From the NCBI RefSeq assembly GCF_022758235.1, contig NZ_JALEBG010000002.1, positions 62,001 through 126,000 on the forward strand: a stretch of DNA of 64,000 bases. Direction: 5' to 3'. This DNA comes from Pontibacter liquoris. Its GTDB lineage: Bacteria > Bacteroidota > Bacteroidia > Cytophagales > Hymenobacteraceae. Numbering within the stretch: position 1 is the stretch's first letter; the number at the start of each line of letters is the position of its first letter. The position numbers and the translations under genes are program-made. Below the pieces are notes generated by a model, which did not search any database, was not told the origin of the DNA, and was given only the letters and a program-made list of their open reading frames with translations. This document shows positions 11,965 to 64,000 of this stretch, piece after piece.

Positions 11965-11996
11965 AATTCGTAATTATTAATTCGTAATTCGTAATT
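11965..11996 (+). repeat. Three copies of AATTCGTAATT
   Basis: Copies at 11965-11975, 11979-11989 and 11986-11996 (the last two overlap). Each unit is nearly palindromic. They lie just upstream of the -7 box of the B12 unit, so they could be an operator or simply AT-rich promoter repeats. Confidence 0.6.
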
Positions 11997-12004
11997 AAAT
12001 CCTC

Positions 12005-12012
12005 TACTTTTG
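12005..12012 (+). promoter_or_regulatory. Putative -7 promoter box of the B12 uptake unit
   Basis: TACTTTTG matches TAnnTTTG and would start transcription a few bases before the riboswitch aptamer. The -33 position is only TTCG (11981-11984). Confidence 0.4.
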
Positions 12013-12017
12013 CCTTC

Positions 12018-12215
12018 AGATTGGTGGCACTAACTACTGCCGTGGTTAGCGCCTTAAAAGGGAAGCAGGTGTAATTCCTGCGCTGTTCCCGCAACTGTCA
12101 TCTTCACCAAAGGGGTTAGCCCATTACCAACGGCCACTGTGCAGCAACCGCAGCATGGGAAGGCGGGCTAACTGAAGAGAGCCAGGAGACCTGCCAGTCC
12201 GACACAAAATTTGTC
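12018..12215 (+). ncRNA. Cobalamin (B12) riboswitch
   Basis: The conserved aptamer parts are readable in order: a GGTGGCAC start, GGGAAGCAGGTGTAATTCCT and CGCTGTTCCCGCAACTGT (the B12-box region), a long arm, then GAGAGCCAGGAGACCTGCC. A short hairpin CGACA/TGTCG follows at about 12200-12216. Adenosylcobalamin or a related corrinoid should bind it and turn down the downstream TonB receptor, as is known for this RNA family. The exact ends are estimates. The receptor gene starts about 70 bases after the aptamer. Confidence 0.93.
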
Positions 12216-12287
12216 GTATGCTTTCGGGTAAAAAGCTGCACGGCCCGCGCGTTACTGCGTCCGCTGTCTCTGCCTATACCCTATTGC

Positions 12288-42051: not shown

Positions 42052-42068
42052 GGTTGTAATAAAATAAA

Positions 42069-45000: not shown

Positions 45001-45173
45001 TCTACACCAGTAGCAGTTCCTACAGTGGTTCCTTTAACAAGGACTGCAACGCCTGGTAGCGCATCCCCGGTGGCTTGGTCAGTCACCTTTCCTGAAACAA
45101 CCCGGCTTTGTGCCCACGCCTGACTAACAAGCGTTAGGAACATAACCAAGCCTAATAATAGAACTTTTCTCAT
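42069..45173 (-). CDS. SusC/RagA TonB-dependent transporter (pair 1)
   Basis: A 1034-residue outer-membrane importer. Signal MRKVLLLGLVMFLTLVSQAWAQ, then a carboxypeptidase-regulatory-like domain (VSGKVTDQATGDALPGVAVL, DGAYTINVPANGSTLEFRFIGY), TonB box region LQEVVVVGYG, plug motifs AAGVQITNTSG, VRVRGVGSISNSSQPLYVIDG and PNDIQSIEVLKDAAASALYG, and a 22-strand barrel ending QARSFTFGVNVGI. First gene of its operon with SusD 1. A TATATTTG box (45219-45226, minus) lies 46 bases upstream; its -33 partner is at a short 15-base spacing. Confidence 0.95.
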   Translation of the reverse strand: MRKVLLLGLVMFLTLVSQAWAQSRVVSGKVTDQATGDALPGVAVLVKGTTVGTATGVDGAYTINVPANGSTLEFRFIGYTTQERAIGNASTINVTLSTDNKQLQEVVVVGYGVKEVKDVTGSITSIKASTIENQPVQSFDQSLAGRAAGVQITNTSGVLADGVTVRVRGVGSISNSSQPLYVIDGVPMAQVSNLNSFNSGNGTRYNPLADLNPNDIQSIEVLKDAAASALYGSRAANGVILVTTKRGKAGTSKITYDYYTGFHEVVNRPDMLNGDDYIAIQNEKAANRFGAGDPKSIIAGNVDLNEDGVPDRTDWLDEIFRRGTVQNHQLSLSGGTEKASYYGSATYADQQGVTEGNRLKRGGARLNIDITPKDWVKAGLSTSFTKSLNNGILSEGYLAGAGVAGFNAAPNVPVYGNDGFYYLNSLGLLGDGANNTTYKLNNFYHPLANLQLQRNNNTSQRILGNAYIEVQPIKDLKVTSKYGIDYIDNFEDQYSDPRIAGLGRSYNGLVQTNNLRRNQWNWSNYATYNKLIAEQHNISATAGLEYQQVDQYSIGAYAGDFADPFFKDIISGTFSEQLGADGSRTHNGFDSYFGRLSYDFGNKYYAEAAFRADAFSGFGMDNKRGYFPAGSIGWRISEENFMHQFEFLDDLKLRASYGVVGNSNIADFASRTLYGGGLYAEQNGLSPVQVGNSNLKWETSTKLDIGFDMSVLNNRIGVTFDYFYNDISDLVLRAPVLRTTGIPGAAVSTNIGSMYNKGVELSINTVNIENNGFSWTSNFNFSAVKNEVTSLYNDVPVVSGSSEAAVGYGIGEFKLIRWAGVNPANGNAQFLDKDGVLKQYDPATKKYYLADGTETSDITANDAVYAGNPYPKWFGGFDNTFKYKGFDLGVFFQYSGGNKILNTTRAGLMTNYLNNNIAEIKDRWQKPGDETNVPRLYLQDNISTRTSTRWLEDGDFLRLRQVSLGYNLPSAVVSKLGINNIRVYGQVQNAFVWTKYSGSDPEVNTNRNVNIAYGVDNRSIPQARSFTFGVNVGI

Positions 45174-48012: not shown

Positions 48013-48114
48013 AAATGTTTATAAGGGTGATTTGATAAGTAGCGAAGTATAAGGTAGCTGAAAGATTATGCAGAAGCCGGCTCAAGTATAAGTTGGCAGT
48101 TACCCCGGCCTGGA

Positions 48115-48153
48115 AAGTATAAAAAGGACATGCAGCAACAGCTTTTTATACTT
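48115..48153. repeat. Inverted pair of the AAGTATAAAAAG word
   Basis: AAGTATAAAAAG (48115-48126) is mirrored by CTTTTTATACTT (48142-48153), 15-base loop. It lies 21 bases past the amidase stop on the minus strand and reads as a possible terminator with T-rich flank. Confidence 0.8.
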
Positions 48154-48173
48154 CGCAGGCAGGGGCTACCGGT

Positions 48174-49865
48174 TTATTTTGCCTTCTGCTTCTTTGTTTT
48201 CGTATTCGCAAAGGCCAGCGTCGGATGCTGCTCGTCAAAATTGGTCAATCCCTGGTAGAAGTTGGCAAAGGCCAGCAACTGCGCCTCGCCAAAGAGCTTG
48301 CCCATAAACGTGATGGTGGTCGGCATGCCATTCTTCTGGAAGCCGTTCGGCACCACCACACACGGGTGGCCGGTCAGGTTGGTTACCACCAGGTTTTGGC
48401 TGGCAAAAGAAGGGCTGATGTAGACATCCACATCCTTGAGCTTTTCCTGCATTTGCTGCACCAGCAAGGTGCGCACACGCTGGGCCTGCAGATACTCTAC
48501 GGCAGGCACAAACCGGGCAGACCGAAACAGGTTAGGCCAGGCATTTTTATGTTGCTGCACCAGCAGGCTGTCGCGGCCGCTGCGGGTCAGCTCATCAAAG
48601 GCTGCCGCTCCCTCCACCGAAATGGTCAGGGCCAGCTCGCCTGCCGGCAGGTCGGGTAGCTCCAACGGCACCAGCTCGATGCCGGCATCACGCAATACCT
48701 TTAAAGCAGCCCAATCGTTTTCCTGGAAGCCATACTTCTTCTCAAAGTCCTGCTTGAGGTAGCCCACGCGCAGCTTCCTGGGGTTTATACTTGTGTTATA
48801 GTTGAACGGCGCATCGTATACGGAAGGATCCTGCCCGTCGGGGCCGTAAATGGCGTTGAACACAATGGCGCAATCTTCTGCCGAGCGTGCGATGGGCCCG
48901 ATCTTGTCCATCGACCAGCTCAGGGCCATGGCGCCATGCCGGCTCACCCGGCCAAAGGTAGGTCGCAGCCCCGTGGTGCCACAGGCGGTAGAGGGCGACA
49001 CAATAGAGCCCAGTGTTTCGGTGCCAATGGCAAAAGGCAGCAGACCGGCAGCCACTGCCGACGCCGAGCCGGCCGATGAGCCACTGGAGCCTTTGGTGAT
49101 ATCCCAGGGCGAGCGCGTTTTGCCACCAAACCATACATCGCCCATGGCCAGCGCACCCAAGGTGGTTTTAGCAACCAGTACTGCCCCGGCGTCCTGCAGG
49201 CGTTTTACAACCGTGGCATCTTCGTTAAGCACCTGGTCTTTGTAAGGCATCGCGCCCCAGGTGGTTTTATACTTGCGGGTAGAAAGCAAATCTTTTACCC
49301 CGAACGGAATGCCGTGGAGCAGCCCTTTATACTTGCCTGCCTTTATTTCCTGGTCTGCCTGGCGCGCCTGTTGCAGGGCCAGCTCGTCGGTAAGGGTAAT
49401 GACACACTCGAGCTTAGGGCCATACTTCTTCAGGCGGTTGAGGTAAAAAGTGGTCAGCTCTACAGACGATAGCTGCCGGGTGCGAATGAGCTGTGCCAGT
49501 TGCGGAATGGTATAAAAAGCCAGCTCGTCCCTGTTTTTGGGGAGTTTCACGTTGTCAGGCGTCGCTACTTCAAAGGCTTGGCGCTGCTGCTCGAACGTAT
49601 AGCCTACCGGGATGGGGTTAAACACCAGGGCAGGCGCCACATTATTCGGCAAAGGCACTTTGCGGATAGCCTCGTAGCTCTTCCTGAAATCCTCCACCTC
49701 CGAAGTGGCAGAATCGAGCTGCGCGTCGGTAAAGTGCAGCCCCATGAGTTTCTGGGCATCCTGCAGCACCGCAATGGTTATTTTATCGTCTGCCAGTTTG
49801 GTTACAAAGGCCCCGGAAACAAAGCAGGTTGCCCCCACAAGAACATAAAGTTTATACTTGTTCAT
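48174..49865 (-). CDS. Amidase of the amidase-signature family
   Basis: A 563-residue hydrolase with an N-terminal signal/anchor (MNKYKLYVLVGATCFVSGAF). The amidase-signature core shows HGIPFGVKDLLSTRKYKTT with the catalytic lysine, KGSSGSSAGSASAVAAGLLPFAIGTETLGSIVSPS with the Ser-cisSer pair and the Gly/Ser-rich loop, and TTGLRPTFGRVSRHGAMAL, MDKIGPIARSAEDC. The C-terminal half has VVTNLTGHPCVVVPNGF. It should cut amide bonds (possibly of peptides or small amides) outside the cytoplasm. Substrate unknown. Followed by a word-pair hairpin. Confidence 0.93.
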   Translation of the reverse strand: MNKYKLYVLVGATCFVSGAFVTKLADDKITIAVLQDAQKLMGLHFTDAQLDSATSEVEDFRKSYEAIRKVPLPNNVAPALVFNPIPVGYTFEQQRQAFEVATPDNVKLPKNRDELAFYTIPQLAQLIRTRQLSSVELTTFYLNRLKKYGPKLECVITLTDELALQQARQADQEIKAGKYKGLLHGIPFGVKDLLSTRKYKTTWGAMPYKDQVLNEDATVVKRLQDAGAVLVAKTTLGALAMGDVWFGGKTRSPWDITKGSSGSSAGSASAVAAGLLPFAIGTETLGSIVSPSTACGTTGLRPTFGRVSRHGAMALSWSMDKIGPIARSAEDCAIVFNAIYGPDGQDPSVYDAPFNYNTSINPRKLRVGYLKQDFEKKYGFQENDWAALKVLRDAGIELVPLELPDLPAGELALTISVEGAAAFDELTRSGRDSLLVQQHKNAWPNLFRSARFVPAVEYLQAQRVRTLLVQQMQEKLKDVDVYISPSFASQNLVVTNLTGHPCVVVPNGFQKNGMPTTITFMGKLFGEAQLLAFANFYQGLTNFDEQHPTLAFANTKTKKQKAK

Positions 49866-50006
49866 AGGTTATGTTAGATCATTTGTAAAACAAAAGAGGA
49901 AGCTGCTGCTCCCCTCTTCCCGTATACAGCCGGTATCATTTCCCGGCCCGGCCCATATTTATATTGCAATATAGTGTTCCGGGCTGCTACTTAAAAGCGA
50001 ACACCT

Positions 50007-50693
50007 TTATTGCAAGGAATTATAGTAGTTGATGAGCTGCGCCAGATCCGCATCTTCTTTCAGCCGCAGCTTATTTTTTTTGATATAAGCATCCAGTTCG
50101 GGTGCTTTGTCGGCCAGTGCTTCCAAAATCGATTTCCGGTCATTTTTAATATTCACCAGTTGTTCCTCCCGGGCGATATAGTAGGTGACCACCGGCAGTA
50201 TGTTTTTTGTGATGGTGGCTGAATTATAGGCTTTCTCCTCCCGGATCACCTTGTTGGTCCGTTTCAACAGGTCCACTTTGCCTTCGGCCAGCACTTCATA
50301 AAAACTGGTTCTGGACGCTCCTTTTATACCCGGGTAGCCATTGCGAAAAACGGCCTCCTGGAGGGCGCCATCTTTTAAGTACGTGATGGTGAACCCAGCC
50401 ACAGACTGAACGATCTCGAGCGTTTCGCCAGCCTTATTCCGGAAAAGCGGGATGTCCTGCACCTGGTCATACTTCAGATCCACATCCGGATATGTCTCGC
50501 CGTTAGCAAGCTTCACGGTGCCTTTGCGCCATTCGTCCTGCAGGTAAGGTGACCCAACTACATTTTCATACTGGCCCACCCGGATAGGCCTCCCGTTTAC
50601 TTCCTCCAGAAAGATCTGGGCCCGACAAGTATAGCTGGTGAGCGTGCTGACAGCCAGGACCAGGAATAGGATAGATAAAGATTTGCATTTCAT
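50007..50693 (-). CDS. Hypothetical secreted protein, 228 residues
   Basis: From ATG 50693 (MKCKSLSILFLVLAVSTLTSY) with a signal peptide ending near CRAQ; the longer frame upstream is unlikely. The mature part has beta-rich repeats of the type VKLANGETYPDVDLKYDQVQ and GETLEIVQSVAGFTITYLKDG, then a helical tail (SILEALADKAPELDAYIKKNKLRL). The family is not clearly recognised; it resembles small uncharacterised secreted proteins of Bacteroidota. Monocistronic. Confidence 0.7.
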   Translation of the reverse strand: MKCKSLSILFLVLAVSTLTSYTCRAQIFLEEVNGRPIRVGQYENVVGSPYLQDEWRKGTVKLANGETYPDVDLKYDQVQDIPLFRNKAGETLEIVQSVAGFTITYLKDGALQEAVFRNGYPGIKGASRTSFYEVLAEGKVDLLKRTNKVIREEKAYNSATITKNILPVVTYYIAREEQLVNIKNDRKSILEALADKAPELDAYIKKNKLRLKEDADLAQLINYYNSLQ

Positions 50694-50827
50694 GTCACGT
50701 ATCGTTAATCGTTCTGATGATAAGCCACTCGTTGATAATACAATATACAAAAGCTGCTTCAGATTTTATTGATAGCCTGTGTCGTTTATAAGGCTGCAGC
50801 AAACTATTGCCACTGACCCTGACATGT

Positions 50828-50861
50828 AAAAACCCCACCGTTTTACAACAGCAGGGTTTTT
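50828..50861 (-). terminator. Terminator of SusD pair 2
   Basis: AAAAACCC/GGGTTTTT 8-bp stem with a long loop; T run on the minus strand. Confidence 0.6.
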
Positions 50862-50916
50862 AGCAGCTTGTAAATAGCGCAAAATGCTGCTATTCACCTT
50901 TTATCAGTTGAGGAAA

Positions 50917-52323
50917 TTACCAGCCGGGGTTCTGTTCAATATTCGGGTTGGCTGTGATCTCATTTCGCGGAATAGGCAGCACCCTGATTGCATCGGTATA
51001 CGGCACTACGTTAGGTGATCGCTTTCTGCCGGTGATGTCTGCCTTCAGGCGGTTCAAGGTAGCAAAGCGGTCGCCTTCAAAGGCCATCTCTTTTCTTCGC
51101 TCCAGTATGATATCGTCCAACAGCTGGGTGCCGGAAGAAGTATACTTTAACTCAGGATCGCGCTCTGCTACCAGCGTATTCAGATATTCCAGCGCTTTGG
51201 CTTCATCGCCGGTGCGGTAAGCAGCCTCGGCAGCGATCAGGTATACTTCCGACATGCGTATCACCACTTTGTCGTCGATGTCGCCGGAGACTGCATTATA
51301 CTTGGTCACAATGTAAGCCGGGTCATCGCTGCCTCTTTCTCCCACCGTAATCAGTTGCCGACGGATATCGGTTGAATCGTAGGTTTCATAAAGCGATGGC
51401 GTGGCCAGGTTCTGTCCGTATCCCTGCTGGTTGAAGTAATATGCATATTCATCTACGCCATTGTTCTCTGTTTGCGTAGCCGATACCTCGAACAGGGACT
51501 CCAGTCCTGCTAATTTTGTGGCGTCGGTTTCAGCCCAGTAGGCCAGCACCGAATTGTATGGCAGCAACTCAACACCACTATCTTTAATTACTTCTTCGGC
51601 ATACTGCAGCGCCAACGCATTATCTCCTTTATACAGGTTCACTTCAGCATCCAGCGCTCTGGCTGCATACTTGGAAAAACGGATAACCGTAAGGTCGGGC
51701 GACATCAGCGTGTAGGCATTTGACAAATCCGACTCAATCTGCTCATAAACCTGGGCTACCGTGGCGCGTGCTGGTTGGGCATTGTAATCATAGGCCGTCA
51801 GCACAAGCGGAACGCCCGGATGCGAGGCATCGGCCGTTTCGTTATAGGGTCGAGCAAAATTCCTTACCAGCTCAAAATAAAGCAGCGCTCGGATGGCATA
51901 TGCCTCGCCTTTATACTGGTCGATAGCTGCCTGATCCGTAACGGTTGGGTTAGAATCGATAATGGCATTCGCCCGGTTGATCACATCATAAGCCCCGGAC
52001 CAGATATCGGTGATATCGCCGTTATTGTTGAGGAAGTTATAACTGGAGAAGCCGCCGAAGTAACCGGAGTTAGACGTAGCCACATACAGGTTATCCGCCA
52101 GCATATCGCCCATAACAGGCAGATAAGTGCCATATAGGTTAACGGTAGCAAGACCTGCATACGCGCCTCGTAGCGCACTCAGCACATCATTATCTGTCAG
52201 CAGGGCCTCATCAGCATTTATACCTGTAGAGGGGCCCTCATCCAGGAACTCATCTTTGCACGAACTGAAACTACCTACCGATAGCAGTCCGGCTAAAACC
52301 AAAATTTTATATCTATTTTTCAT
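50917..52323 (-). CDS. SusD/RagB-like nutrient-binding lipoprotein (pair 2)
   Basis: A 468-residue outer-membrane lipoprotein with lipobox SFSSC-K. Motifs: ALLTDNDVLSALRGAYAGLATV, GEAYAIRALLYFELVRNFARPY, VYEQIESDLSNAYTLM, VIRMSEVYLIAAEAAYRTGDEAKALEYLNTL, ERRKEMAFEGDRFATLNRLK, VLPIPRNEITANPNIEQNPGW. Works with SusC pair 2, encoded 12 bases upstream. Substrate unknown. Confidence 0.94.
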   Translation of the reverse strand: MKNRYKILVLAGLLSVGSFSSCKDEFLDEGPSTGINADEALLTDNDVLSALRGAYAGLATVNLYGTYLPVMGDMLADNLYVATSNSGYFGGFSSYNFLNNNGDITDIWSGAYDVINRANAIIDSNPTVTDQAAIDQYKGEAYAIRALLYFELVRNFARPYNETADASHPGVPLVLTAYDYNAQPARATVAQVYEQIESDLSNAYTLMSPDLTVIRFSKYAARALDAEVNLYKGDNALALQYAEEVIKDSGVELLPYNSVLAYWAETDATKLAGLESLFEVSATQTENNGVDEYAYYFNQQGYGQNLATPSLYETYDSTDIRRQLITVGERGSDDPAYIVTKYNAVSGDIDDKVVIRMSEVYLIAAEAAYRTGDEAKALEYLNTLVAERDPELKYTSSGTQLLDDIILERRKEMAFEGDRFATLNRLKADITGRKRSPNVVPYTDAIRVLPIPRNEITANPNIEQNPGW

Positions 52324-52335
52324 TCATCTGATTAA

Positions 52336-55335
52336 TTAGAAGCCAACATTAACACCAAAAGTGACTGTTTTAGGAACATTGATATCGAAATTTGTTGTGC
52401 CGCCTACGCCACCTGCTTCCGGATCGTATGGCAGTTTGTCGTCCGCCACCCAGGTCCAAAGGTTTGCTCCACGGGCATACACTCTCAGGCTCGACATTTT
52501 AAGCCGGCTCACGATGCCCTGTGGAATAGTATAGCCCAAGGTCACATCGCGTAAGCGGATAAAATCACCTTTGTTGAGGATCTTATCGGATACGGCGCGG
52601 AATCTGTAATCATTGTCATACGACAGCTTGGACACGCTGGCCTCGTCACCTGGCTGCTGCCATCTGTCGAGCTGTGTGGCGCGCTGGTTATAAGAACCCA
52701 GGAACCAACCGCCACTATTGAGGTATTGGTAGTATGGGTCATAAATATAGTTGCCGAAGTTGTAGTAGAACAAGGCATCCAGCGACAATCCTTTGTAGGT
52801 GAGGGTAGTACCGGCGCTACCAAACGCTTTCGGCAAAGCAGATTTGCCTGTTAACGAGTAGGCTGCCTTGGAATACGTTTTGGTTGTTTCTGCTTTTGAA
52901 GCATCTGTATACCAGGTTGGCATTCCGTCTGCCGGGTCTACGCCCGCCCACAGCGGCATGTAATACTGGTAAACATCCTGGCCCACCTGGCGGATAAAGG
53001 GCGAAACCTGCTGCTTATCCACGCTTAGTTCTGTGATCTTGTTTTTGTTTTTGGAAAAGTTAAAGCTCAGATCCCATCTAAAATCACCTACCTGCACCGG
53101 GGTGCCTGAAATAGCTAATTCAAATCCCCTGTTTCGCATGGCGCCGATATTCTCTAACCTGCTTGCCCAGCCGGTGGTTAACGACAGCGGCCGCTCCAAC
53201 AACAGGTCTGATGTTGCTCTGGAATAATAATCCGCACTCAGGCTCAGTCTGTTGTTAAAGAAACTGGCATCCACGCCCACGTCAAAAGGCTTGTTCTTTT
53301 CCCAGGTCAGGTCGGCATTACCCAAAGACGATGGCACAGCCGCCACCGAGCCCCCGTAGGTGCTGGTGTACGAATACAACCTGCGCCATACATAGTTACC
53401 GATGCCGGCGTTACCATTCACCCCGTAAGAGGCTCTTAACTTCAACTGGTTTATGAAATCCAGGTCCTGTATAAAGCTTTCTTGATCCATGTTCCAGCTG
53501 GCACCTACCGACCAGAAGTTACCATACTTGTTATCGGATCCGAAACGGGAAGAACCGTCTCTTCGGAAGCTACCCGACAGCACATACTTGCCTTTGTACG
53601 AAATATCGCCCAGGGCTAACATAGAGGCAAACGAGTAGCCTTCGTTCGCGCCATTTGCCGTGATCGGAGTTGCGCCAACAGAAGGCACAGTAAAGTCCGT
53701 GTTCTGGGGCATGTTCTCGGCATAAACAGAGGCTGTGTAAATAGAAGACTTCTGCGCTTCGTAACCACCTTTCAGGTTCAGCAGCCAGGTATTGTCTTTG
53801 TTGATATCCCAGGTATAGTTCAGCAGGTTTGTCCAAACCCAGTTAAAATAACGGGTATAGTAGCGGGTAGAGCTTCCCTGGGTAGACTCCGCATCCCCAT
53901 AGAATGGGTTCTGATAATTGTCTTCTTCCAGGCTGTTGAAGTCAATACCATACTTGGTGGTAAAGGAAAGCCCTGGCAGGATCTTATACTCGCCGTTAAT
54001 GCTACCAATGGTCTTCAGGATATTGCTATTGTTCTTATCCAGATCGGCCAGGAGCAGCGGGTTGAAGGGCGCCTGCGGACGGGAATCCAGCGCCAGCGAA
54101 GGCATCAGAAACAGCGACGCCATCACCGGGTTAGCAAAGTAGCCACTGTTAAGCGGGCCTTTTTGCGTCGAGTTGGAGAAGAGCAGGTTCGTACCAAAAG
54201 ACAGCTTGTCGTTAAGCGTGTGCTGCAGGTTAAGGCCTGTGGAATATCTTTCGAATTCAGACTTGATCACCGTGCCTTCCTGGTTATAATAACCGCCAGA
54301 TACGCTGAACTGCGTCTTCTCGCTGCCACCGGTAACAGCCAGGTTATATTGCTGTGTATGCCCGGTACGCTTGGTCGCATCTTCCCAGTTGGAGTTGATA
54401 GCAGGGTCTAGGCCGAAGTTCTCGTTTAAGAAATCACCGATATTCTCCTCGTTTAGGCCATAAGCTTCCCAGTAGCCATCATTCTTTAAGGCCTCTCCTA
54501 ACAGTTCGATGTTTTCAGCAGTGGTCAGCGGGCGTGTATTGTCGTTGTAGTATGCTCGTTTCGATACGCCATACTCTGCATCCAGGCTAACTTTGGTCTT
54601 GCCGGCTTTACCGCTCTTGGTCGTGATCACAATTACACCGTTGGCAGCTCTGGAACCATAAATAGAAGCAGCAGAAGCATCTTTCAGCACGTTAATGCTT
54701 TCAATGTCATTTGGGTTGATGCCTGCCAATGCGTTGGCCGTGGTCGTGTTCCGCGACAAGTCGCCTGAGTTGATCGGCACCCCATCCACCACATACAGCG
54801 GCTCTGAAGAACCCGTGATGGAACCGATCCCTCTGATGCGGATCTGCTGCGCAGAACCCGGTTGCCCGGAAGCGCCCACCGATTGCAAACCCACTACGCG
54901 GCCCTGCAGCGCTTTATCCACCGAAGCCATCGGGATGTTCTCGATCTCGGCTCCTTTTACCTGTGCCACAGCGCCCGTATTCTGCAGGGTATTGGTTGTG
55001 CCATAACCTGTAATGATAACCTCGCTTAACTGCTTGTTATCCACGCCCAATGCAACATTCAGCACAGTGTTGGTGCCGATTGCCACTTCTTTGGTGCTGT
55101 AGCCAATATAGCGGAATATTAAGGTAGTAGCTTCTGCGGGCACATTCAGGGTATAGCTGCCGTCTGCACCGGTAGCCGTACCGGCTGTAGATCCTTGCAC
55201 AATTACGGAAACACCTGGCAGCCCCTGGCCAGTTGCTTGGTCGGTTACTGTTCCCGACACTGTTTTGCTCTGCGCCATCGCCTGTTGCAGCAAGGCGAAC
55301 ATCAAAGCAAAACAGATTAGTAGACTTCTTTTCAT
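52336..55335 (-). CDS. SusC/RagA TonB-dependent transporter (pair 2)
   Basis: A 999-residue outer-membrane importer. Signal MKRSLLICFALMFALLQQAMAQ, carboxypeptidase-regulatory-like domain (VSGTVTDQATGQGLPGVSVI, GSYTLNVPAEATTLIFRYIGY), TonB box region LSEVIITGYG, plug motifs QRVVG-like ALQGRVVGLQSVGASGQPGS, IRGIGSITGSSEPLYVVDG and PNDIESINVLKDASAASIYG; barrel ends KTVTFGVNVGF. Its signal peptide and first domain are almost the same as those of SusC pair 3, and the promoter regions also match, indicating duplication. Substrate unknown. Confidence 0.95.
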   Translation of the reverse strand: MKRSLLICFALMFALLQQAMAQSKTVSGTVTDQATGQGLPGVSVIVQGSTAGTATGADGSYTLNVPAEATTLIFRYIGYSTKEVAIGTNTVLNVALGVDNKQLSEVIITGYGTTNTLQNTGAVAQVKGAEIENIPMASVDKALQGRVVGLQSVGASGQPGSAQQIRIRGIGSITGSSEPLYVVDGVPINSGDLSRNTTTANALAGINPNDIESINVLKDASAASIYGSRAANGVIVITTKSGKAGKTKVSLDAEYGVSKRAYYNDNTRPLTTAENIELLGEALKNDGYWEAYGLNEENIGDFLNENFGLDPAINSNWEDATKRTGHTQQYNLAVTGGSEKTQFSVSGGYYNQEGTVIKSEFERYSTGLNLQHTLNDKLSFGTNLLFSNSTQKGPLNSGYFANPVMASLFLMPSLALDSRPQAPFNPLLLADLDKNNSNILKTIGSINGEYKILPGLSFTTKYGIDFNSLEEDNYQNPFYGDAESTQGSSTRYYTRYFNWVWTNLLNYTWDINKDNTWLLNLKGGYEAQKSSIYTASVYAENMPQNTDFTVPSVGATPITANGANEGYSFASMLALGDISYKGKYVLSGSFRRDGSSRFGSDNKYGNFWSVGASWNMDQESFIQDLDFINQLKLRASYGVNGNAGIGNYVWRRLYSYTSTYGGSVAAVPSSLGNADLTWEKNKPFDVGVDASFFNNRLSLSADYYSRATSDLLLERPLSLTTGWASRLENIGAMRNRGFELAISGTPVQVGDFRWDLSFNFSKNKNKITELSVDKQQVSPFIRQVGQDVYQYYMPLWAGVDPADGMPTWYTDASKAETTKTYSKAAYSLTGKSALPKAFGSAGTTLTYKGLSLDALFYYNFGNYIYDPYYQYLNSGGWFLGSYNQRATQLDRWQQPGDEASVSKLSYDNDYRFRAVSDKILNKGDFIRLRDVTLGYTIPQGIVSRLKMSSLRVYARGANLWTWVADDKLPYDPEAGGVGGTTNFDINVPKTVTFGVNVGF

Positions 55336-55405
55336 ACTAGTAGTTTTGGTTAATTAAAGATAGAAAAATTGGAATATAAATATTTATGCTTAATAAGATG
55401 CTATT

Positions 55406-55436
55406 CAAAGGTAAATAAGAAAAAAATGAATGCAAA
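55406..55436 (-). promoter_or_regulatory. Promoter of SusC pair 2
   Basis: Minus strand TTTG (55433-55436), spacer of exactly 19, TACCTTTG (55406-55413). Same TTTGCATT start and spacing as in pair 3. Confidence 0.7.
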
Positions 55437-55926
55437 CAATATTGTACAACATAATTTGAAGAAGTATACGCACAACCAGCATATAATGTAACCTATAAAT
55501 GATTATTTAAATTGAAATACACCAATTGTAGCCTATATTATTTATATACAGATAATTAGTTATACTATATAATATATAAATTTTAGACTATACCCGAGTT
55601 TTAATATAATTTATTTAATATATATAATTATAACATTACTTTTACTGCAGAATCGCTTAATAGAACCATTTAAAGATGATTACCACACAAACAGCGAGAA
55701 TGACGCAAAAGGTGTAGCTACGACCACCATACTTTTATGAGCTCATTCTTCAACCTGACAGTTGGTAGGGAGCGTGTGATCTTTGCAGAAATTTTTGCAA
55801 ACCAAACAGAAAGGACAAGCGGGGCGTGCGGGCAATACTGCCAGGACGTAGCATTTGCCAGGCGGGCTTTAAATTTTGACGGGTGTATTCCGCTTATAAT
55901 TGATTCAACGAACAGATAATCCCTAT

Positions 55927-55964
55927 AAAAAAAGGAAGGGGTAGACAAACTGTCTACCCCTTCC
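55927..55964 (-). terminator. Terminator left behind by the lost susD
   Basis: Perfect 14-bp stem with core GGGGTAGACA/TGTCTACCCC, loop AAC, seven T on the minus strand. It lies 22 bases past the stop codon of the susD remnant. Confidence 0.85.
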
Positions 55965-55986
55965 CGGATAAGCTTAATTACAATTT

Positions 55987-56076
55987 CTAGTAACCTGGAT
56001 TTGGTTCCAGCGATGGGTTGATGTCCAGCTCGCGTTGCGGAATTGGCAGGATAGTGATGCTATTATTCCGGCATAC
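55987..56076 (-). pseudogene. C-terminal remnant of a SusD/RagB gene
   Basis: On the minus strand the last 29 codons before a TAG stop at 55987 read ...ITILPIPQRELDINPSLE then PNPGY. This matches the C termini of the intact SusD proteins here (ILPIPQVDIQANPKLEQNPGY, VLPIPRNEITANPNIEQNPGW). Going upstream, the frame is closed by a stop at 56077-56079, and no other SusD or SusC sequence is found before the SusD 3 terminator. Its own terminator is intact just downstream. The rest of the gene and its SusC partner seem to have been deleted. Confidence 0.88.
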
Positions 56077-56152
56077 TTAGGTTTTTAATTTACTTTATGC
56101 CAGGTTATGATTCCTTAATGTAGGTGCTATAGAATATATTGTTGGTGAAAAC

Positions 56153-56178
56153 ACTACCAATGGCTACTACCAATGGCT
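56153..56178. repeat. 13-bp tandem duplication
   Basis: ACTACCAATGGCT occurs twice in direct succession (56153-56165, 56166-56178), near the susD remnant. Confidence 0.8.
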
Positions 56179-56222
56179 GGAAGCAATCAATTCTTTCCAG
56201 GAGAATTCGTCTAGCAGATGGG

Positions 56223-56257
56223 AAAAAAACTCCCAAACTATTTTCATAGCCTGGGAG
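56223..56257 (-). terminator. Terminator of SusD pair 3
   Basis: CTCCCA/TGGGAG stem with inner CTAT/ATAG separated by symmetrical mismatches, then seven T on the minus strand. Confidence 0.75.
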
Positions 56258-56283
56258 TCTCCTAATTACATACAATCCGATAA

Positions 56284-57723
56284 CTAGTATCCGTCATTCT
56301 GAGTGATGTTATCGTTTACATCGATCTCGTACTGAGGAATTGGCAACTGGAACAGCGAGCTTCCAGCAGGGATACCTGCAACGGCCGGCGCTGCACCGGT
56401 ACCATCTATTCGGTCACCAGAAGTAGAGCGCTCTACTGGTAAGCCAAGGCGCTTCAGATCAAAGAAGCGGTGTCCTTCGAAAGCAAGCTCTAGTCTTCTC
56501 TGCTTCAGAATTGCATCATATAAATTTTGACCTGTTTCAGTAGCTGTTGCTGCATTAAAGTCTGCATAACGGTTGCTTCTGATCATGTTCAGGTCATTCA
56601 GCGCCTTGTCGTACATGCCCAGGTTGTAATAAGCTTCCGCTCTGTTCAGGTACACTTCCGCTGTTCTGATTACTTTTACATCCACTACGTTCGCGTTGCC
56701 CGAAGCTCTGCCAGCGTATTTCTTCACATAGTTAAAGTCAAAGCCGTTAAACTTCGTCTGCCCGATGTAAACATTCTTACGCACATCAGATGACGTGTAC
56801 TCGTTAACCAGCTCGAACGTTGGCGTGTACTCAGGACGTACACCAGCAGGGCTTGCCTGTCCATAACCAACGCCAACTGGTGTAGCGTCCGCATCAACAA
56901 TCTTCACTTTAAACAGCACTCCTTTTTCAGAAGCATCCATCCATACGGCAGGAAATTCTGCAATGGAAGCTAAGCCGTTTGCTGCCGGCACTGCCTGTAG
57001 CGCGGCAGTAGAAGCATCTGCTGCATTTTGCCACTGCCCCATGTACAGGTAAACTCTGCCAAGCAGGGCATTAACCGCAGCTGTGTTCAGGCGTCCTAAA
57101 CCATTTGAAGCTCCAATCATTGGCGCAGCAGTAGTAAGGTCGCTCACCACATTATTGTAAGACTCTTTCAGTGACGTTCTGGAAGGCAACTGGTTAGGAT
57201 CTGTTGAAGTTACGTAAGGCACACCCAAATTAGAGTCTGTAGCGCCTTCGTATCTTGCCGCAAACACACGAAGTAAATCAAAGTGAGCAAGTCCTCTTAG
57301 AGCCAGGGCTTCTGCTTTTACGTTGTTCTTGAAATCACCATCCGATAGGTTATCAATGTTCTCAAGAATGAAGTTGGCTCTGTTGATAGTAGTATAGGCA
57401 TCGTTCCATAAACCACCCCATGTGCCATTCGGCGTATAGTTGTAGTTGAAGTAAGTCTGCTGAGACTTTCTACCTTGTGAGTTAATAATTAGATTATCGG
57501 CTAGAATATCTGGGGTAATGATCATGGAGCCAGCATCCTGCCCACCATAATAACTAGAACCTCTCAATCCTGCGTATGCACCTCTGATAGCATTACTAAA
57601 ATCAGACTCTGTTTTGAATGCCTGCGGAGTACTAATCGAGTTATACGGCTCAAGCATCAATTCATTGTCACAGCTAGCCAGTGGTAATAAACCTAAGGCT
57701 AACAGATATAAAAATCTTTTCAT
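56284..57723 (-). CDS. SusD/RagB-like nutrient-binding lipoprotein (pair 3)
   Basis: A 479-residue outer-membrane lipoprotein with lipobox PLASC-D. Motifs: FKTESDFSNAIRGAYAGLRG, AEALALRGLAHFDLLRVFAARY, SYNNVVSDLTTAAPMIG, AVNALLGRVYLYMGQWQNA, VIRTAEVYLNRAEAYYNLGMYDKALNDLN, KQRRLELAFEGHRFFDLKRLG, LPIPQYEIDVNDNITQNDGY. Works with SusC pair 3 (28 bases upstream). Substrate unknown. Confidence 0.94.
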   Translation of the reverse strand: MKRFLYLLALGLLPLASCDNELMLEPYNSISTPQAFKTESDFSNAIRGAYAGLRGSSYYGGQDAGSMIITPDILADNLIINSQGRKSQQTYFNYNYTPNGTWGGLWNDAYTTINRANFILENIDNLSDGDFKNNVKAEALALRGLAHFDLLRVFAARYEGATDSNLGVPYVTSTDPNQLPSRTSLKESYNNVVSDLTTAAPMIGASNGLGRLNTAAVNALLGRVYLYMGQWQNAADASTAALQAVPAANGLASIAEFPAVWMDASEKGVLFKVKIVDADATPVGVGYGQASPAGVRPEYTPTFELVNEYTSSDVRKNVYIGQTKFNGFDFNYVKKYAGRASGNANVVDVKVIRTAEVYLNRAEAYYNLGMYDKALNDLNMIRSNRYADFNAATATETGQNLYDAILKQRRLELAFEGHRFFDLKRLGLPVERSTSGDRIDGTGAAPAVAGIPAGSSLFQLPIPQYEIDVNDNITQNDGY

Positions 57724-57751
57724 TATTTCTTTAATTTACTTTAACCGTTAA

Positions 57752-60700
57752 TTAAAAGCTTACATCAACACCGAAAGAGAACTGACGTGTTTGTGGATAG
57801 CTGTACAGAGAAGCTTGTCCTACCTGGGTAAGTCCAGATTCCTCACTTCCGTAACCTACCTCAGGGTCGCCGAAGTAATGCGGATTGTAAGTCAGCAGGT
57901 TCTGGCCTTGTACATAAACACGCAGCGACTGCATCTTGATCTTCTCTGTCAATGCTTTGGGCACAGTGTAACCTAATGTCAGGTTTCTCAGGCGCAAAAA
58001 CGAAGCTTTTTCAAGGTAAAGGTCTGTTGTATAAGTAACATTCTCTCCATTTGCAGCCGGTAACACGTTTACATCACCTGGTTTCTTCCAGTAGTTCAAA
58101 GCATCGGTGCTCAGGTTCTGGTAGTAAAGATCTCCCCAGGATACCAAGTCATTCTTCACATAGTTCAGTGCATAGTTTCCTGACACGAAGTTTGCATTAG
58201 CAGAGAAATCGATCCCTTTCCAGGCTATAGTAGTACCAAACCCACCATAGAATTTAGGGTTCGGGCTTTTCCCGTCCAGGATAACCGCATCAGATGAAGA
58301 ATACGTTTTTGTAACCTCGCCATCTTTAGAATAGTACTGTGCTTCTCCCGTTTGAGGATCTACTCCTGCATAGCGTACTAGTTTGAAAGTCCCGTAAGCA
58401 TAACCTGGCCGAAATACACCAATGCCGTTCGTTACAATTTCTTCCTGCCCTTCGTTCAGTGTCTTCACTTCGTTTTTGTTGAAAGTGATATTACCATTGA
58501 ATGACCAGGTAAGGGAGCTGTTTCTTATGATGTCAACATTCAAAGCAGCCTCAAGCCCTTTGTTCTGAACAGAACCGATGTTTCTTGTTACTGTAGAGAA
58601 ACCCGTTGTTCTGGAGATAGGGGTATTCAGGAGCAGGTCTTCAGTTGTTTCATTATAGTAGTCTAAGCTAACAGCAAACCGAGACTTGAACAGTTCAAAA
58701 TCAAGACCAATGTCTCTCTTAAGTTTGCTTTCCCAAGAAAGTGCTGGGTTAGCTACCTGGCTAGGAAATGATGTCAGCAAGTTGTTGTACTTGCCAAATC
58801 CGTAGAGGCCCAGCGACTGGTAATTGCCAATACCTGCAAAGTTGCCTACTGTACCTACTGATGCTCTTAACTTCAATACAGTCAGCCAATCATACTGCTG
58901 CATAAAGTTTTCCTGTGTTACCAGCCATGAAGCACTTGTAGACCAGAAAGTACCGTACTTGTTATCAGAACCGAATCGGGAAGAACCGTCTCTGCGCAGG
59001 CTCCCTGTTAAGTAGTAACGTTTGTTAAAGTTATACTCCAGGTTAGCGGCTAAAGAAGAGATTGCCCAATCTGCAGCTGTAGTAGAGTTTGTACCTGTAT
59101 TGGCAGCTCCGTTGTCTTGTGTGCTCAGGTTACCATTTGCAAAGCCTTTCTTAGACAAAGAGTAGCTACTAAACTGGTCTTTCTGGAATTCCTGAAATAA
59201 CAGAACACCGAAGTTATGCTTCTCACCCACGTTGAACTCGTAACGAGCAGAGTTGATCCAGTCGTAAGCGAATTCTCTTGATCCGTTATCAACTTTAGTA
59301 CCTCTTGCAGTTGGGTCACCTACATATAGGTCCAGCACAGAGCCTGGCTTAAGGAAAGATGTTCTAGAATAGTCGTTTAAGGTCAAACCCAGTTTTGAAG
59401 AAAGTATTAAACCCTTCAGGGGAGTAACATCAACATTAAAAGAGTTCAAACCGCTCATATACTTACGCTCTTCAGGGTTATTCTCCAGGGCTTCTAGAAT
59501 CGGAAATCCCTGGCTGGTGTAGTTAACGGAACCATCCTCTAAATAGGCAGGCTCATATGGGTTGTAAGCATAAATAGCATAAAATGGGTTTTGTGCATTG
59601 TAGCGGTCTCTTAGCTCATTAGTCTTAGTATGACCCAATGTTAACGCATTACCTACTCTCAACCAGGATTTTATCTGCGAACTTACATTTAAGGTACCAG
59701 TGTATCTGTTGAATACTGAACCTTTTGTTAATCCTTCCTGGTCATACTTCTGCAAAGAGAAGTAGTAGTTTGATTTGTCTGTGTTACCACCAAATGAAAG
59801 CTGATGAGATGTGATCTTACCGCTCTGAAGGATATCATCTTTCCAGTCGTGGCTTTGTGCGATCAAAGAATTCCAACCAGCCTGCCGCTCTGCATCTGTA
59901 ATGTTAAACAAGTTTGCAGTGTTAGGGAAGTCATTACTCTGCAGGTAGTTTGAAAAGTCAGAGTTTTCGTATCCCAGATCATATTCATACTGCAGTTTCT
60001 GTGCAGCATTCATCATGTCAAAGTTATCCGGAATTTTTTCGTTCACACCCGTCAAGAAGCGGTAAGTAATCTGCCCATTTGATTTAGCTCCGTTCTTGGT
60101 AGTAACCACCAAAACACCGTTTGAACCTCTTGCACCATAGATTGAAGCCGCAGCAGCATCTTTCAGCACAGAAATGCTTTCGATGTCGTTTGCGTTTATG
60201 CTGGTAAAGAACTGATCCGCCATGTTATCTGGGATCTGCACACCATTTACAACTAATAGCGGATCATTGCTACCACTGATAGAGCCTGTACCTCTGATAC
60301 GGATAAAGGCATTAGCCCCTGGCTTACCATTAACAGCTGTTACCTGCACACCTGCTGCTTTACCTTGCAATAACTGGTCAATAGAAGGGTTAGGTCGTTG
60401 CTCCAGTTCTTTTGAGTTTACAACAGATATCGCTGAAGATAAGTCTTCTTTTGTTTTAGTCTGATAACCTGTTACCACTACTTCTTCCAGCTGCTTGTTG
60501 TCAACACCAAGCCCTACATTGATCGTGCTTTCATTGCCAATAGGACGCTCCACGGATTTGTAACCAATGAAACGAAAAACCAGGGTACTGCCATTAGCCG
60601 GCACGTTAACCGTATACCCACCATCTGCACCGGTAGCTGTCCCTACTGTAGTTCCTTTCACGACAACCGATACTCCCGGCAGACCTTGTCCGGTTGCCTG

Positions 60701-60796
60701 ATCGGTTACTTTCCCCGACACTGTTTTGCTTTGCGCCATCGCCTGTTGCAGCAGGGCGAACATCAAAGCCAAACAAATTAATAGACTTCTCTTCAT
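57752..60796 (-). CDS. SusC/RagA TonB-dependent transporter (pair 3)
   Basis: A 1014-residue outer-membrane importer. Signal MKRSLLICLALMFALLQQAMAQ; carboxypeptidase-regulatory-like domain (VSGKVTDQATGQGLPGVSVV, GGYTVNVPANGSTLVFRFIGY); LEEVVVTGYQT; plug with QGKAAGVQVTAVNGKPG, IRIRGTGSISGSNDPLLVVNG and ANDIESISVLKDAAAASIYG; barrel end TRQFSFGVDVSF. Close relative of SusC pair 2 in the N-terminal 110 residues but different in the barrel, so its ligand likely differs. Confidence 0.95.
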   Translation of the reverse strand: MKRSLLICLALMFALLQQAMAQSKTVSGKVTDQATGQGLPGVSVVVKGTTVGTATGADGGYTVNVPANGSTLVFRFIGYKSVERPIGNESTINVGLGVDNKQLEEVVVTGYQTKTKEDLSSAISVVNSKELEQRPNPSIDQLLQGKAAGVQVTAVNGKPGANAFIRIRGTGSISGSNDPLLVVNGVQIPDNMADQFFTSINANDIESISVLKDAAAASIYGARGSNGVLVVTTKNGAKSNGQITYRFLTGVNEKIPDNFDMMNAAQKLQYEYDLGYENSDFSNYLQSNDFPNTANLFNITDAERQAGWNSLIAQSHDWKDDILQSGKITSHQLSFGGNTDKSNYYFSLQKYDQEGLTKGSVFNRYTGTLNVSSQIKSWLRVGNALTLGHTKTNELRDRYNAQNPFYAIYAYNPYEPAYLEDGSVNYTSQGFPILEALENNPEERKYMSGLNSFNVDVTPLKGLILSSKLGLTLNDYSRTSFLKPGSVLDLYVGDPTARGTKVDNGSREFAYDWINSARYEFNVGEKHNFGVLLFQEFQKDQFSSYSLSKKGFANGNLSTQDNGAANTGTNSTTAADWAISSLAANLEYNFNKRYYLTGSLRRDGSSRFGSDNKYGTFWSTSASWLVTQENFMQQYDWLTVLKLRASVGTVGNFAGIGNYQSLGLYGFGKYNNLLTSFPSQVANPALSWESKLKRDIGLDFELFKSRFAVSLDYYNETTEDLLLNTPISRTTGFSTVTRNIGSVQNKGLEAALNVDIIRNSSLTWSFNGNITFNKNEVKTLNEGQEEIVTNGIGVFRPGYAYGTFKLVRYAGVDPQTGEAQYYSKDGEVTKTYSSSDAVILDGKSPNPKFYGGFGTTIAWKGIDFSANANFVSGNYALNYVKNDLVSWGDLYYQNLSTDALNYWKKPGDVNVLPAANGENVTYTTDLYLEKASFLRLRNLTLGYTVPKALTEKIKMQSLRVYVQGQNLLTYNPHYFGDPEVGYGSEESGLTQVGQASLYSYPQTRQFSFGVDVSF

Positions 60797-61590
60797 ACTA
60801 GTTGTTTAGATTAATTAAATAAGGTTAGAATAGTTGTAAATCAAATATAGGTAGGAATATAACTAATGCAAAAAAGGCATGACCTGCTTTTTTATCTCCA
60901 GAAAAGCCCCATACTGCTTTTATACAATTAAGCCCATCATCCTTACACGGCATACGACCGCATTATTTCGCCTTATCAATTACAATATATGCATTTACGG
61001 ATATATAATTTTAAAGCAACATACCGCCATGCAGCTATATTACTAATTTCTTACAAGAAGGAGCCTCAGTATTCGAAATTAGCAATTATAAATTTACCGC
61101 GGCAACGCTTCCCCAATCAGTGAAGAGCTTAACCATAATTTAAATTAAACCCTAAAATCAAAAAGTAGGCTCTTCATCCCCATGGAAAGTAATACGCCTG
61201 ATCTTCAGGACAAACGCCTTGAAGGAATAGCCCTTTATAGAGGCCGCCTTATCGCTTAAGGAAAGGCAAACATGCGCAAAAGCCGGGATGCCTCCTACAA
61301 GCCTACTCTTAGCTCGCACTACAAAAGATCCAAAATAAAAATATTGCATTATAAAACAGCAGAATTTTCAGGGGTATACTTTCCAGAGCAGGGCAGCTAT
61401 ACCTACTGTTATAGACGCTCCTACGCACTACCCACGCAGCTTTTTCAAGCACATGTTTTTGCCCTCCTACTCGTAGACAACCGGCTGCCAGGCTCTCCAA
61501 TTTAAAAGCTTTATTTACTTGTAGCAGCCGGCTATAGTATATAAAGCGTATACCTTTTATCTTGCGCTAGCATCTTACTCTTTCCCTCAT
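60797..61590. other. Intergenic region before the TraB/GumN-like gene
   Basis: Holds the promoter of SusC 3 and AT-rich sequence around 60960-61140. Frames at 61158-61505 on either strand have no recognisable product. No RNA gene or repeat was seen. Confidence 0.55.
60842..60872 (-). promoter_or_regulatory. Promoter of SusC pair 3
   Basis: Minus strand TTTG (60869-60872), spacer of 19, TATATTTG (60842-60849), 46 bases from the ATG. Confidence 0.7.
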
Positions 61591-62487
61591 ATGTACCAAC
61601 ACTCCCGAAGGGCAGCTCTACTGCTTCTTTTATACTGCTTTCTTGGCCTTTCAGGAGTTGTGCAGGCAGTAGCAGGCGGCAACACAACCGCCAATGCCCT
61701 GTTATGGCAGATAGAAGGCAATGGCCTACAGAAACCGTCTTACCTGTTTGGTACGATCCACGCCATCTGTCCACAAGATTTTGTAATGCCCGCACATGTA
61801 AAGGCAAAGCTGCAGGAAGCCGAGCAACTGTCATTGGAAGTGGATATGGACGCGCCCAACTTTATGGCCGAGATGATGCAGCACGTGAAACTGCCCGAAG
61901 GGCAAAGCCTGCGGACGTTGTTTTCTTCCGAGGATTACCAGCTTCTCTCCGAGCACTTCAGCAAAAGCACAGGTATGAATATCCGTTACCTCGACAACAT
62001 GAAGCCGTTTATGCTGCAGTCGCTGCTGCTGGCCGAGTTAACCGATTGCCGGGCCGAATCCTATGAGCAGCACCTGCTGGACATGGCGCATGCGCAAGGC
62101 AAAGAGGTGATCGGCGTGGAAACCGTACAGGAACAGCTGCAGGCCATGGACCAGCAGTCTGCCGGAGCGCAGACAGCCATGCTGCTGAAGACGTTGCAGA
62201 ACCTGCCCGAAGCTAAGGCTTCGTACCGCAAGATGGTCGCCTTATACCTGGCCCAGGACCTACAGGGATTAACCGAGCTTACCCGGGCGGAGATGGACCC
62301 GGAGGAGTATACACAATACGAGCAAACCTTCCTAACGAACCGCAACAAGCGCTGGATACCCGTAATGGAGCGAGAGGCAAAGATCCATAGTACCTTCTTT
62401 GCTGTTGGGGCTGGGCACCTGGCAGGCGAAAACGGGCTATTGAACCTGCTGCGCAGCCAAGGCTATACTATTACGCCTGTGCAGTAA
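61591..62487 (+). CDS. TraB/GumN-family protein, secreted
   Basis: A 298-residue protein with N-terminal signal (RRAALLLLLYCFLGLSGVVQA). The TraB/GumN family pattern is seen: LWQIEGNGLQKPSYLFGTIHAICP with the GTIH motif, LSLEVDMDAPNFM, KEVIGVETVQEQLQAM with GxET, and C-terminal AKIHSTFFAVGAGHLAGENGLLNLLRSQGYTI. These conserved Glu and His residues suggest a metal-dependent hydrolase (TIKI-like), but the bacterial substrate is not established. It should act in the periplasm. It precedes an M1 aminopeptidase by about 140 bases on the same strand. Confidence 0.9.
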   Translation: MYQHSRRAALLLLLYCFLGLSGVVQAVAGGNTTANALLWQIEGNGLQKPSYLFGTIHAICPQDFVMPAHVKAKLQEAEQLSLEVDMDAPNFMAEMMQHVKLPEGQSLRTLFSSEDYQLLSEHFSKSTGMNIRYLDNMKPFMLQSLLLAELTDCRAESYEQHLLDMAHAQGKEVIGVETVQEQLQAMDQQSAGAQTAMLLKTLQNLPEAKASYRKMVALYLAQDLQGLTELTRAEMDPEEYTQYEQTFLTNRNKRWIPVMEREAKIHSTFFAVGAGHLAGENGLLNLLRSQGYTITPVQ

Positions 62488-62624
62488 TTGCCTTCCGCTT
62501 CAGCAGGAGGTTATTAAGCCATCAAGTAGTGCCAAACCTTGCTGCTATCCACAAAGGTAATTTGCTGCCCGGCATCTTATGAAGCGGCAAGGCGTTATAC
62601 CTTTATTCTGAAATGCAGCCTGCT

Positions 62625-64000
62625 ATGAAGACCACCATCCGCTTGCTCCTGTACTTTTGCCTTGTGTTCGGGCTCGGCAATGCAGCCGTTAAGGCGCAGG
62701 CCATCAGTTCCTGTGCACTTGCGCGTGGCAGCGCTTCCGGCCAGCGCACAGCCGTCGTATCGGCGGCACACCAGCGCCTGATGAACCAGTATGATGTCAC
62801 TTTCTACAAACTGGACCTGCAACTCGAGCGCAACAGCACCTTTATTGCCGGCACGGTGACTATCAATGCCAAAGCAAAAGCCGGCGGGCTCAGCACTTTT
62901 GCCTTGGAGCTGCACCCGAACTTCGCCATCGAACGCGTAACCGCAGGAACCCAGGTATTAGAAAAGGTAACCCGCAACGGCAGTGAAGTGACTGTTGCAT
63001 TTCCTGCCGCTGTGCCGGCCAATGGCGCAATCTCCGTAAGTATAACTTACAGCGGCAATGCGCCAGCCGATGCCAGCGCAGCCATCGGCAATGGCTTTAA
63101 CACCGCTGTGGAGCCGACATGGGGCAACCAGATTACCTGGAGCCTGAGCGAACCCTACGCCGCCTACGAATGGTGGCCCACCAAACAGGTGCTCTCCGAT
63201 AAAGCCGATTCGGTGAGTGTGTTTGTCACCACCAGCGCCGACAATAAAGTAGGGGCAAACGGACGCCTGACCCGCACCGTGGACCTGCCCAATGGCAAAA
63301 AGCGATACGAGTGGAAGTCGCGTTACCCGATCGCCTATTACCTTGTTTCGGTAGCTGTTTCCAATTACGAGGAGTATGTAACGTATGCCCGACCGGAAGG
63401 CGTTTCGACGCCCATCCCGATCGTGAACTATGTGTACCGGGGTGGCGCGCTGGACAAGTATAAAGCGGAGATCGATCTGACAGGCCCCTTCATCGAAAAT
63501 TATTCGGAGCTGTTCACGCACTACCCCTTTGCTGCCGAGAAGTATGGCCATAGTATGGCACCCATTGGCGGCGGCATGGAGCACCAGACCATGACCACGC
63601 AAAGCACTTTCGAGTTTACCCTCACCGCACACGAACTGGCTCACCAATGGTTTGGCGATAATGTAACCTGCGCTTCCTGGCAGGACATCTGGCTCAACGA
63701 GGGCTTTGCTTCTTATGGCGAATACCTGTCGTTGCAACGGTTCCGGCCTGCGCTGGCCCGGGACTGGATGGAGAACGCCCATACCTATGCTTTTCAGAAG
63801 CCTGACGGTTCTGTGCTGGTTCCCGATACGGCCAATGTAAACCGCATTTTCGATTACCGGCTAACTTATAAAAAAGCGGCATCGGTGGTACACATGCTGC
63901 GGTTTGCCATTCAGAATGATGCGCTCTTCTTTGAGGCCCTGCGCCGCTACCAGCAGGAGTTTAGCGGCCGCACCGCTACCACTGCCGACTTGCAGCGCGT
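62625..64000 (+). CDS. Secreted M1 aminopeptidase, N-terminal part (cut by window edge)
   Basis: Zinc aminopeptidase, about 458 codons visible, running off the right edge. ATG 62625 gives a clean signal (MKTTIRLLLYFCLVFGLG); an ATG four codons earlier (62613) is an alternative. Motifs: GNQITWSLSEPYAAYEWWPTKQ, then GGGMEHQTM (the GxMEN exopeptidase motif with His in place of Asn), the zinc site TAHELAHQWFGDNVTC and WLNEGFASYGEYLSL. It is a different branch from the M1 protein at 6370. Probably secreted into the periplasm or beyond. Confidence 0.93.
   Translation, partial: MKTTIRLLLYFCLVFGLGNAAVKAQAISSCALARGSASGQRTAVVSAAHQRLMNQYDVTFYKLDLQLERNSTFIAGTVTINAKAKAGGLSTFALELHPNFAIERVTAGTQVLEKVTRNGSEVTVAFPAAVPANGAISVSITYSGNAPADASAAIGNGFNTAVEPTWGNQITWSLSEPYAAYEWWPTKQVLSDKADSVSVFVTTSADNKVGANGRLTRTVDLPNGKKRYEWKSRYPIAYYLVSVAVSNYEEYVTYARPEGVSTPIPIVNYVYRGGALDKYKAEIDLTGPFIENYSELFTHYPFAAEKYGHSMAPIGGGMEHQTMTTQSTFEFTLTAHELAHQWFGDNVTCASWQDIWLNEGFASYGEYLSLQRFRPALARDWMENAHTYAFQKPDGSVLVPDTANVNRIFDYRLTYKKAASVVHMLRFAIQNDALFFEALRRYQQEFSGRTATTADLQR

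Follow-up and report, generated by a model that had tools for sequence, protein, structure and literature searches.

The short reading frame at positions 55987–56076 (minus strand) is very probably the non-functional remnant of an E-type SusC–SusD pair that once lay beside the amidase and S9 peptidase genes of Pontibacter liquoris. This conclusion is based on the family of the remnant, its positional orthology, the lack of a second E-type copy in its own genome and the variability of the slot in which it lies. The DNA analysed (the window) is a stretch of 64,000 nucleotides. A broader reading, which we favour with some confidence, is a dedicated 'docking slot' for SusCD pairs: the SusC 5′ end and the downstream peptidases would be constant, transporter bodies with their lids would be exchanged between species by homologous recombination, and relics would be fossils of earlier occupants.

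The relic and its surroundings

The relic lies where the initial annotation had placed it, in a gap of 950 nt that separates the SusC2 start (55335) from the SusD3 stop codon (56284). The minus strand of 56076–55987 is an open frame of 29 codons, VCRNNSITILPIPQRELDINPSLEPNPGY, followed by a stop codon. Its last 24 codons, SITILPIPQRELDINPSLEPNPGY (about 56061–55990), are a SusD C-terminus and, together with the stop codon, occupy 55987–56061 on the minus strand as the orthologue of the end of the E-type SusD of G053 (L133:11178–12647). The first five codons, VCRNN (56062–56076, minus strand), could not be aligned to SusD, and the junction is located at about this point. The SusD scar reported initially is thus confirmed, but its description as 29 codons of SusD was a slight overstatement, as only 24 of them are homologous. 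In a protein search, the relic matched the end of the intact G019 SusD with E=1e-10 over 24 residues, and its final 22 residues were identical to that protein. Chance is excluded, since genus-wide, among the matches listed, the relic alone was located outside a full-length frame.

The frame carries an in-frame C-terminal SusD_RagB motif ending at the stop codon, as expected of the SusD family, and its intact orthologue bears both PF07980 and PF14322. The relic itself is not of full length and has no SusC partner directly upstream. Since just the 24 final codons remain, it is a remnant and not a working SusD member.

Downstream of the frame, a 33-nt hairpin (55965–55933) and a U-run form the intrinsic terminator of the lost susD (55926–55965, minus strand). 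The folding energy of this hairpin, −27.2 kcal/mol with a z score of −6.5 against shuffled sequences, bears out the claim that the tail had retained its own terminator. The terminator motif AGGGGTRGRCA-N3-6-TGYCYACCCCT was searched in 50 genomes and found in four of them, with one copy each: between the SusD stop codon and the amidase in G047, G053 and G024, and as the terminator of the relic in the window. Given that the motif is otherwise confined to the stretch from SusD to the amidase, a SusD–amidase junction most likely once lay at the site of the relic. Today, SusC2, SusD2 and a gene for a 247-aa protein (50007–50750) separate its terminator from the amidase.

All genes of the slot are encoded on the minus strand. 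SusC2 (52336–55335) is a TonB-dependent transporter of type C with Plug and CarbopepD_reg_2 domains, the body of which is 72% identical to the slot SusC of G022; SusD2 (50917–52323) contains PF14322 and PF07980. The 247-aa protein belongs to no Pfam family and also occurs alongside the type C pairs next to the amidase of G022 and of G023 (47–52%), and its gene may be part of the type C cassette. The amidase (PF01425; 48174–49865) is the downstream anchor of the slot, and the S9/DPP IV-type peptidase (45610–48012) is the second anchor gene. On the other side of the relic, SusD3 (56284–57723; 65% to the SusD in the slot of G063 and to that of Rufibacter psychrotolerans) and SusC3 (57752–60796; 65–66% to the same two genomes) form a type D pair.

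In the remaining DNA of the gap (55336–55986 and 56077–56283), a tblastn search with 1410 proteins of the retrieved loci detected no SusC or further SusD sequence; the relic tail was the only match, in agreement with the initial annotation. No Rfam family matched the relic region at curated thresholds, indicating that it is not a known RNA. The SusC2 leader and the stretch up to the old terminator (55336–55925, minus strand) contained no coding remnant. Between the AT-rich leader and the old terminator, about 250 nt (55640–55900) are of higher G+C content, for which neither coding similarity nor an RNA family was found; 30-nt matches of 55780–55809 in G059 and G043 were set aside, their contexts being unrelated. 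The spacer between SusD3 and the relic (56077–56283, minus strand) holds the terminator of SusD3 itself (about 56260–56224, minus strand) and no detected SusC remnant. It also contains, at 56165–56131, a degenerate copy of the dispersed palindrome TTGTTGGTGTTTTCACCAACAA, exact copies of which were present in 23 of the 50 genomes of the genus, up to 20 in one (G061), with none in the genome of the window. A 21-nt likeness of 56097–56077 to the SusC3–SusD3 spacer had raised the idea that a susD start had been kept and joined to the tail; this candidate was dropped, as the E-type spacers of G053, G019 and G005 were not clear matches, and the likeness is probably an AT-rich coincidence.

The slot upstream of the amidase across the genus

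To identify the source family of the tail, it was searched as a protein in 50 genomes of the genus, including that of the window; the sample comprised one genome per species, several of them drafts. The best three matches outside the window were found in G019 (92%), G005 (88%) and G053 (83%), and the next reached 70%. The SusDs that gave these three matches belong to one family (E type), being 70–73% identical over their length, and other SusDs of the genus were at most 40% identical to this family. All three lie directly upstream of the amidase gene, which is followed by the S9/DPP IV-type peptidase gene. The same two genes are located downstream of the relic, with 74–85% (amidase) and 74–84% (peptidase) identity to those of G019, G005 and G053. 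With its best match to the E-type family and the same neighbours, the relic is thus orthologous to the E-type pair of G053. Its own genome, which is 99.99% complete, contained no other E-type SusD, the nearest being SusD1 (39%).

At the DNA level, the short relic is 76–78% identical to all three E-type genes, so that DNA cannot tell which of them is nearest. In a genus-wide DNA search with the scar, the G053 tail was the only longer orthologous stretch detected, and this nearly empty result made searches at the level of protein and synteny necessary. These identified relatives with an extra pair at the same position, whole in G053 and G005 and with a broken SusC in G019. A lone conserved fragment was looked for in the 50 genomes and not found, so the reading as a relic stands. 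Taken together, the E-type tail, its slot in the relatives and the lack of a lone conserved fragment support the initial proposal of a former SusCD pair.

The amidase was found in 47 of the 50 genomes searched, and the DNA upstream of it was read in 46 congeners. In these, the slot held zero to two SusCD pairs; complete SusCs numbered none in nine congeners, two in one and one in the rest. Clustering at 46% identity, a cut-off on which the clusters depend, grouped the occupants of the congeners and the window into ten SusC types, A to J. The distribution of these types was discordant with the tree of the amidase and S9 peptidase, and sister genomes with the same flanks differed in their occupants (E in G053 vs F in G047; H in G054 vs B in G049). 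Tandems were observed in G005 (A–E), G019 (C–E), the window itself and, outside the genus, Rufibacter psychrotolerans (a D pair, then an A pair, then the S9 peptidase). The slot of the window contains D, the E relic and C.

The nearest relative by amidase and S9 peptidase, G019, carries a C pair together with an E pair that is broken but has a whole SusD. Its E-type SusC (L157, 8563–11002) has kept residues 1–67 and 849–997, the two pieces being separated by a 499-aa lipoprotein-like gene and by a fragment of 45 residues from the start of an S9 peptidase. A transposase was considered for the 499-aa gene and rejected on account of its lipoprotein-like start; it has no Pfam family. In G060, a J-type pair is eroded to SusC residues 115–145 and SusD residues 67–227 and 356–482 (L165, reverse complement, 11790–13013), and this relic is independent of that in the window. 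The eroded pairs of G019 and G060 indicate that loss by erosion has occurred more than once at the slot.

Beyond the S9 peptidase, a further SusC gene of varying type is present in the window (40630–45173) and in many congeners, and G063 holds there a relative of SusC1 at 87%. This stretch may be a second slot for exchange.

Proposed pair exchange through the SusC 5′ end

The boundaries of exchange were analysed by comparing slots with different occupants. Between G053 and G047, the flank was colinear (85%) to approximately 40 nt into susC, and colinearity resumed 11 nt before the amidase. Likewise, the first 150 nt of susC were 92–100% identical between G054 and G049, with about 50% identity over the rest, and the start of the E-type susC of G005 (−50 to +200) was 90–98% identical to that of the A-type susC of its close relative G050.

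For SusC pairs of different types, the similarity of residues 1–70 was correlated with amidase and S9 peptidase relatedness (rho 0.29; none of 1000 permutations was as high, in a test that takes the genomes as exchangeable, which holds only roughly for related species), while residues 111–800 showed no trend (−0.11). For pairs of the same type, the correlation was 0.64–0.73 for SusC residues 1–110 and 0.03–0.14 for the rest. SusD showed no correlation with amidase and S9 peptidase identity in any part. Since the SusC N-terminus tracks the locus and the SusC body and SusD do not, these sequence comparisons suggest that the 5′ end of susC (the first 70–110 residues or so) tends to stay with the locus, and that the SusC body and SusD travel.

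The window contains this 5′ arm twice, at SusC2 (55098–55358, minus strand; about 23 nt upstream and the first 238 nt) and at SusC3 (60559–60819, minus strand). The two copies are 79% identical, vs 35% for the SusC bodies. The first 100 nt of SusC3 showed 90% identity to SusC2 and 68% to the D-type orthologue of SusC3 in G063, and its arm was 82–88% identical to the two copies of G019; the SusC3 body fits the D-type orthologue. Elsewhere in the genome, an unlinked copy (73%) and another partial one (70%) were found, the segment being mainly common to the two slot genes (79%). From these patterns, the SusC 5′ ends look recombinogenic, as the left end of pair exchange. Their conservation could also come partly from gene conversion between neighbours, without pair exchange.

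In the exchange that we propose, cells would take up foreign DNA with a different SusCD pair. The left crossover would occur in the conserved SusC 5′ end, which comprises promoter-proximal DNA, the signal peptide and the CarboxypepD_reg-like extension, and the right junction would fall at or after the susD end. The incoming transporter body and lid would then run behind the resident 5′ end, beside the same peptidases. The likely selective sense of such an exchange would be that the imported peptides change while the processing enzymes stay.

Loss of the E pair and comparison with known systems

In this lineage, the E pair was lost, either because SusC3–SusD3 displaced it and the right junction fell untidily within susD, or through deletion from a tandem. 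The initial annotation had suggested a crossover between the flanking SusC starts, and this suggestion is not borne out, as the junction still present is within the tail of susD, with no SusC start nearby. Had the SusC3 start recombined with that of SusC2, SusC3, SusD3 and the scar would all be gone; had the start of the lost SusC recombined with that of SusC2, neither the SusD tail nor its terminator would have survived. The mechanism fails in both cases.

Displacement and tandem deletion, both versions of the main explanation given at the outset, yield an identical junction, and we regard the two as about equal. Displacement, to which we give slightly less than an even chance, supposes that SusC3–SusD3 replaced the E pair in one event, which on the left involved a crossover in the SusC 5′ arm and on the right ended within the tail of the E-type susD, leaving the relic as the right-hand footprint. 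It accounts for the missing second SusC 5′ arm, it agrees with a SusC3 arm of the resident kind (90% to SusC2, 68% to the orthologue) joined to an orthologue-like body, and the sister-species comparisons give the same left boundary. However, the right boundary elsewhere lies after the susD stop codon, near the amidase start and not inside susD, and no homology was found at the right junction.

Tandem deletion, also a serious candidate, places the E pair beside SusC3–SusD3 and has it eroded by at least one illegitimate deletion down to the susD end. The four known tandems at the slot (G005, G019, Rufibacter and the window) are consistent with this, as is the stepwise erosion of the J-type pair in G060, in which the susD ends are better kept than SusC. 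A tandem E pair should, however, bring its own SusC 5′ arm, of which there is no trace between SusD3 and the relic; the deletion would then have had to take away the whole arm and yet end no more than about 210 nt from SusD3. The exact ancestral order D–E–C was present in no genome examined, which counts against the main explanation, and neither the dispersed palindrome nor the spacer of about 600 nt is accounted for by it.

It is improbable that the tail was never resident and came in at the left margin of the DNA carrying SusC2–SusD2. The tail does lie directly upstream of the SusC2 leader, and the recipient would need no resident E pair; yet the closest relative by anchor genes (G019) has an E-type SusD at the slot, the relic terminator is of the amidase-adjacent and not the SusC2-adjacent kind, and G022 and G023, which have the nearest C pairs, are without E sequence. 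The reading of tail and terminator as a conserved functional element, such as a small open frame or an insulator, is largely refuted and very improbable. In its favour are an intact frame and an intact terminator, as well as differences from G019 that are mostly synonymous (16 synonymous vs 3 nonsynonymous codons). Against it, the tail was found on its own in none of the 50 genomes, SusD3 already carries its own terminator, and the synonymous pattern is best attributed to the period before the gene was broken up. From this pattern, the gene probably still worked, with the tail as part of it, during most of the period since the split from G019, which suggests, on few codons, that the loss of the E pair was fairly recent.

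Among known systems, ragAB of Porphyromonas gingivalis, in which RagA is SusC-like and RagB SusD-like and which serves peptide uptake (PMC11817032), is the nearest parallel to the slot in our analysis. Several divergent ragAB alleles occupy one locus and have been reported to be horizontally transferred between strains and species, and the N-terminus of RagA, with its signal peptide and CarbopepD_reg_2 extension, is highly conserved (PMC11817032). The slot likewise holds divergent SusCD pairs at one locus, discordant with the flanking genes, and a SusC N-terminus conserved across types. A further likeness would be protein or peptide nutrition, peptide uptake at the slot being suggested by the neighbouring amidase and S9 peptidase only. 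Unlike ragAB, the slot comprises ten types, with SusC bodies mostly 20–45% alike, across species of a genus, and shows tandem stacking, empty slots and relics as well as the amidase and S9 peptidase anchors.

Differing SusCD-bearing loci at one place are also known from Bacteroides ovatus and B. xylanisolvens, in which node-flanked variable PULs are bordered by conserved core genes and for the most part lack mobile-element genes; they have been explained by homologous recombination in the flanks (PMC8845570). In contrast to these PULs, the left boundary of the slot is inside susC itself (the first 40–250 nt or so), and only the pair, sometimes with one additional gene, is exchanged. In the SusC/SusD shufflon of Bacteroides fragilis, several SusCD gene clusters are likewise rearranged by recombination, through site-specific multiple inversion by the Tsr0667 invertase (PMC4747536), whereas the slot pairs all run in the same direction. 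No inverted SusC copy was found in the window, and the two 24-nt inverted repeat pairs within 48000–64000 are in no SusC gene.

SusCD pairs determine the nutrients that Bacteroidota are able to take up. The relic draws attention to one slot at which a comparison of 47 species can show how such pairs arrive, stack up, decay and disappear, and relics help to order successive replacements. The suggested mechanism of exchange, in which a new transporter body would inherit the resident expression and export signals, is testable. At this slot, whole transporter pairs appear to be swapped between related bacteria, and the peptide-degrading enzymes encoded next to them stay in place.
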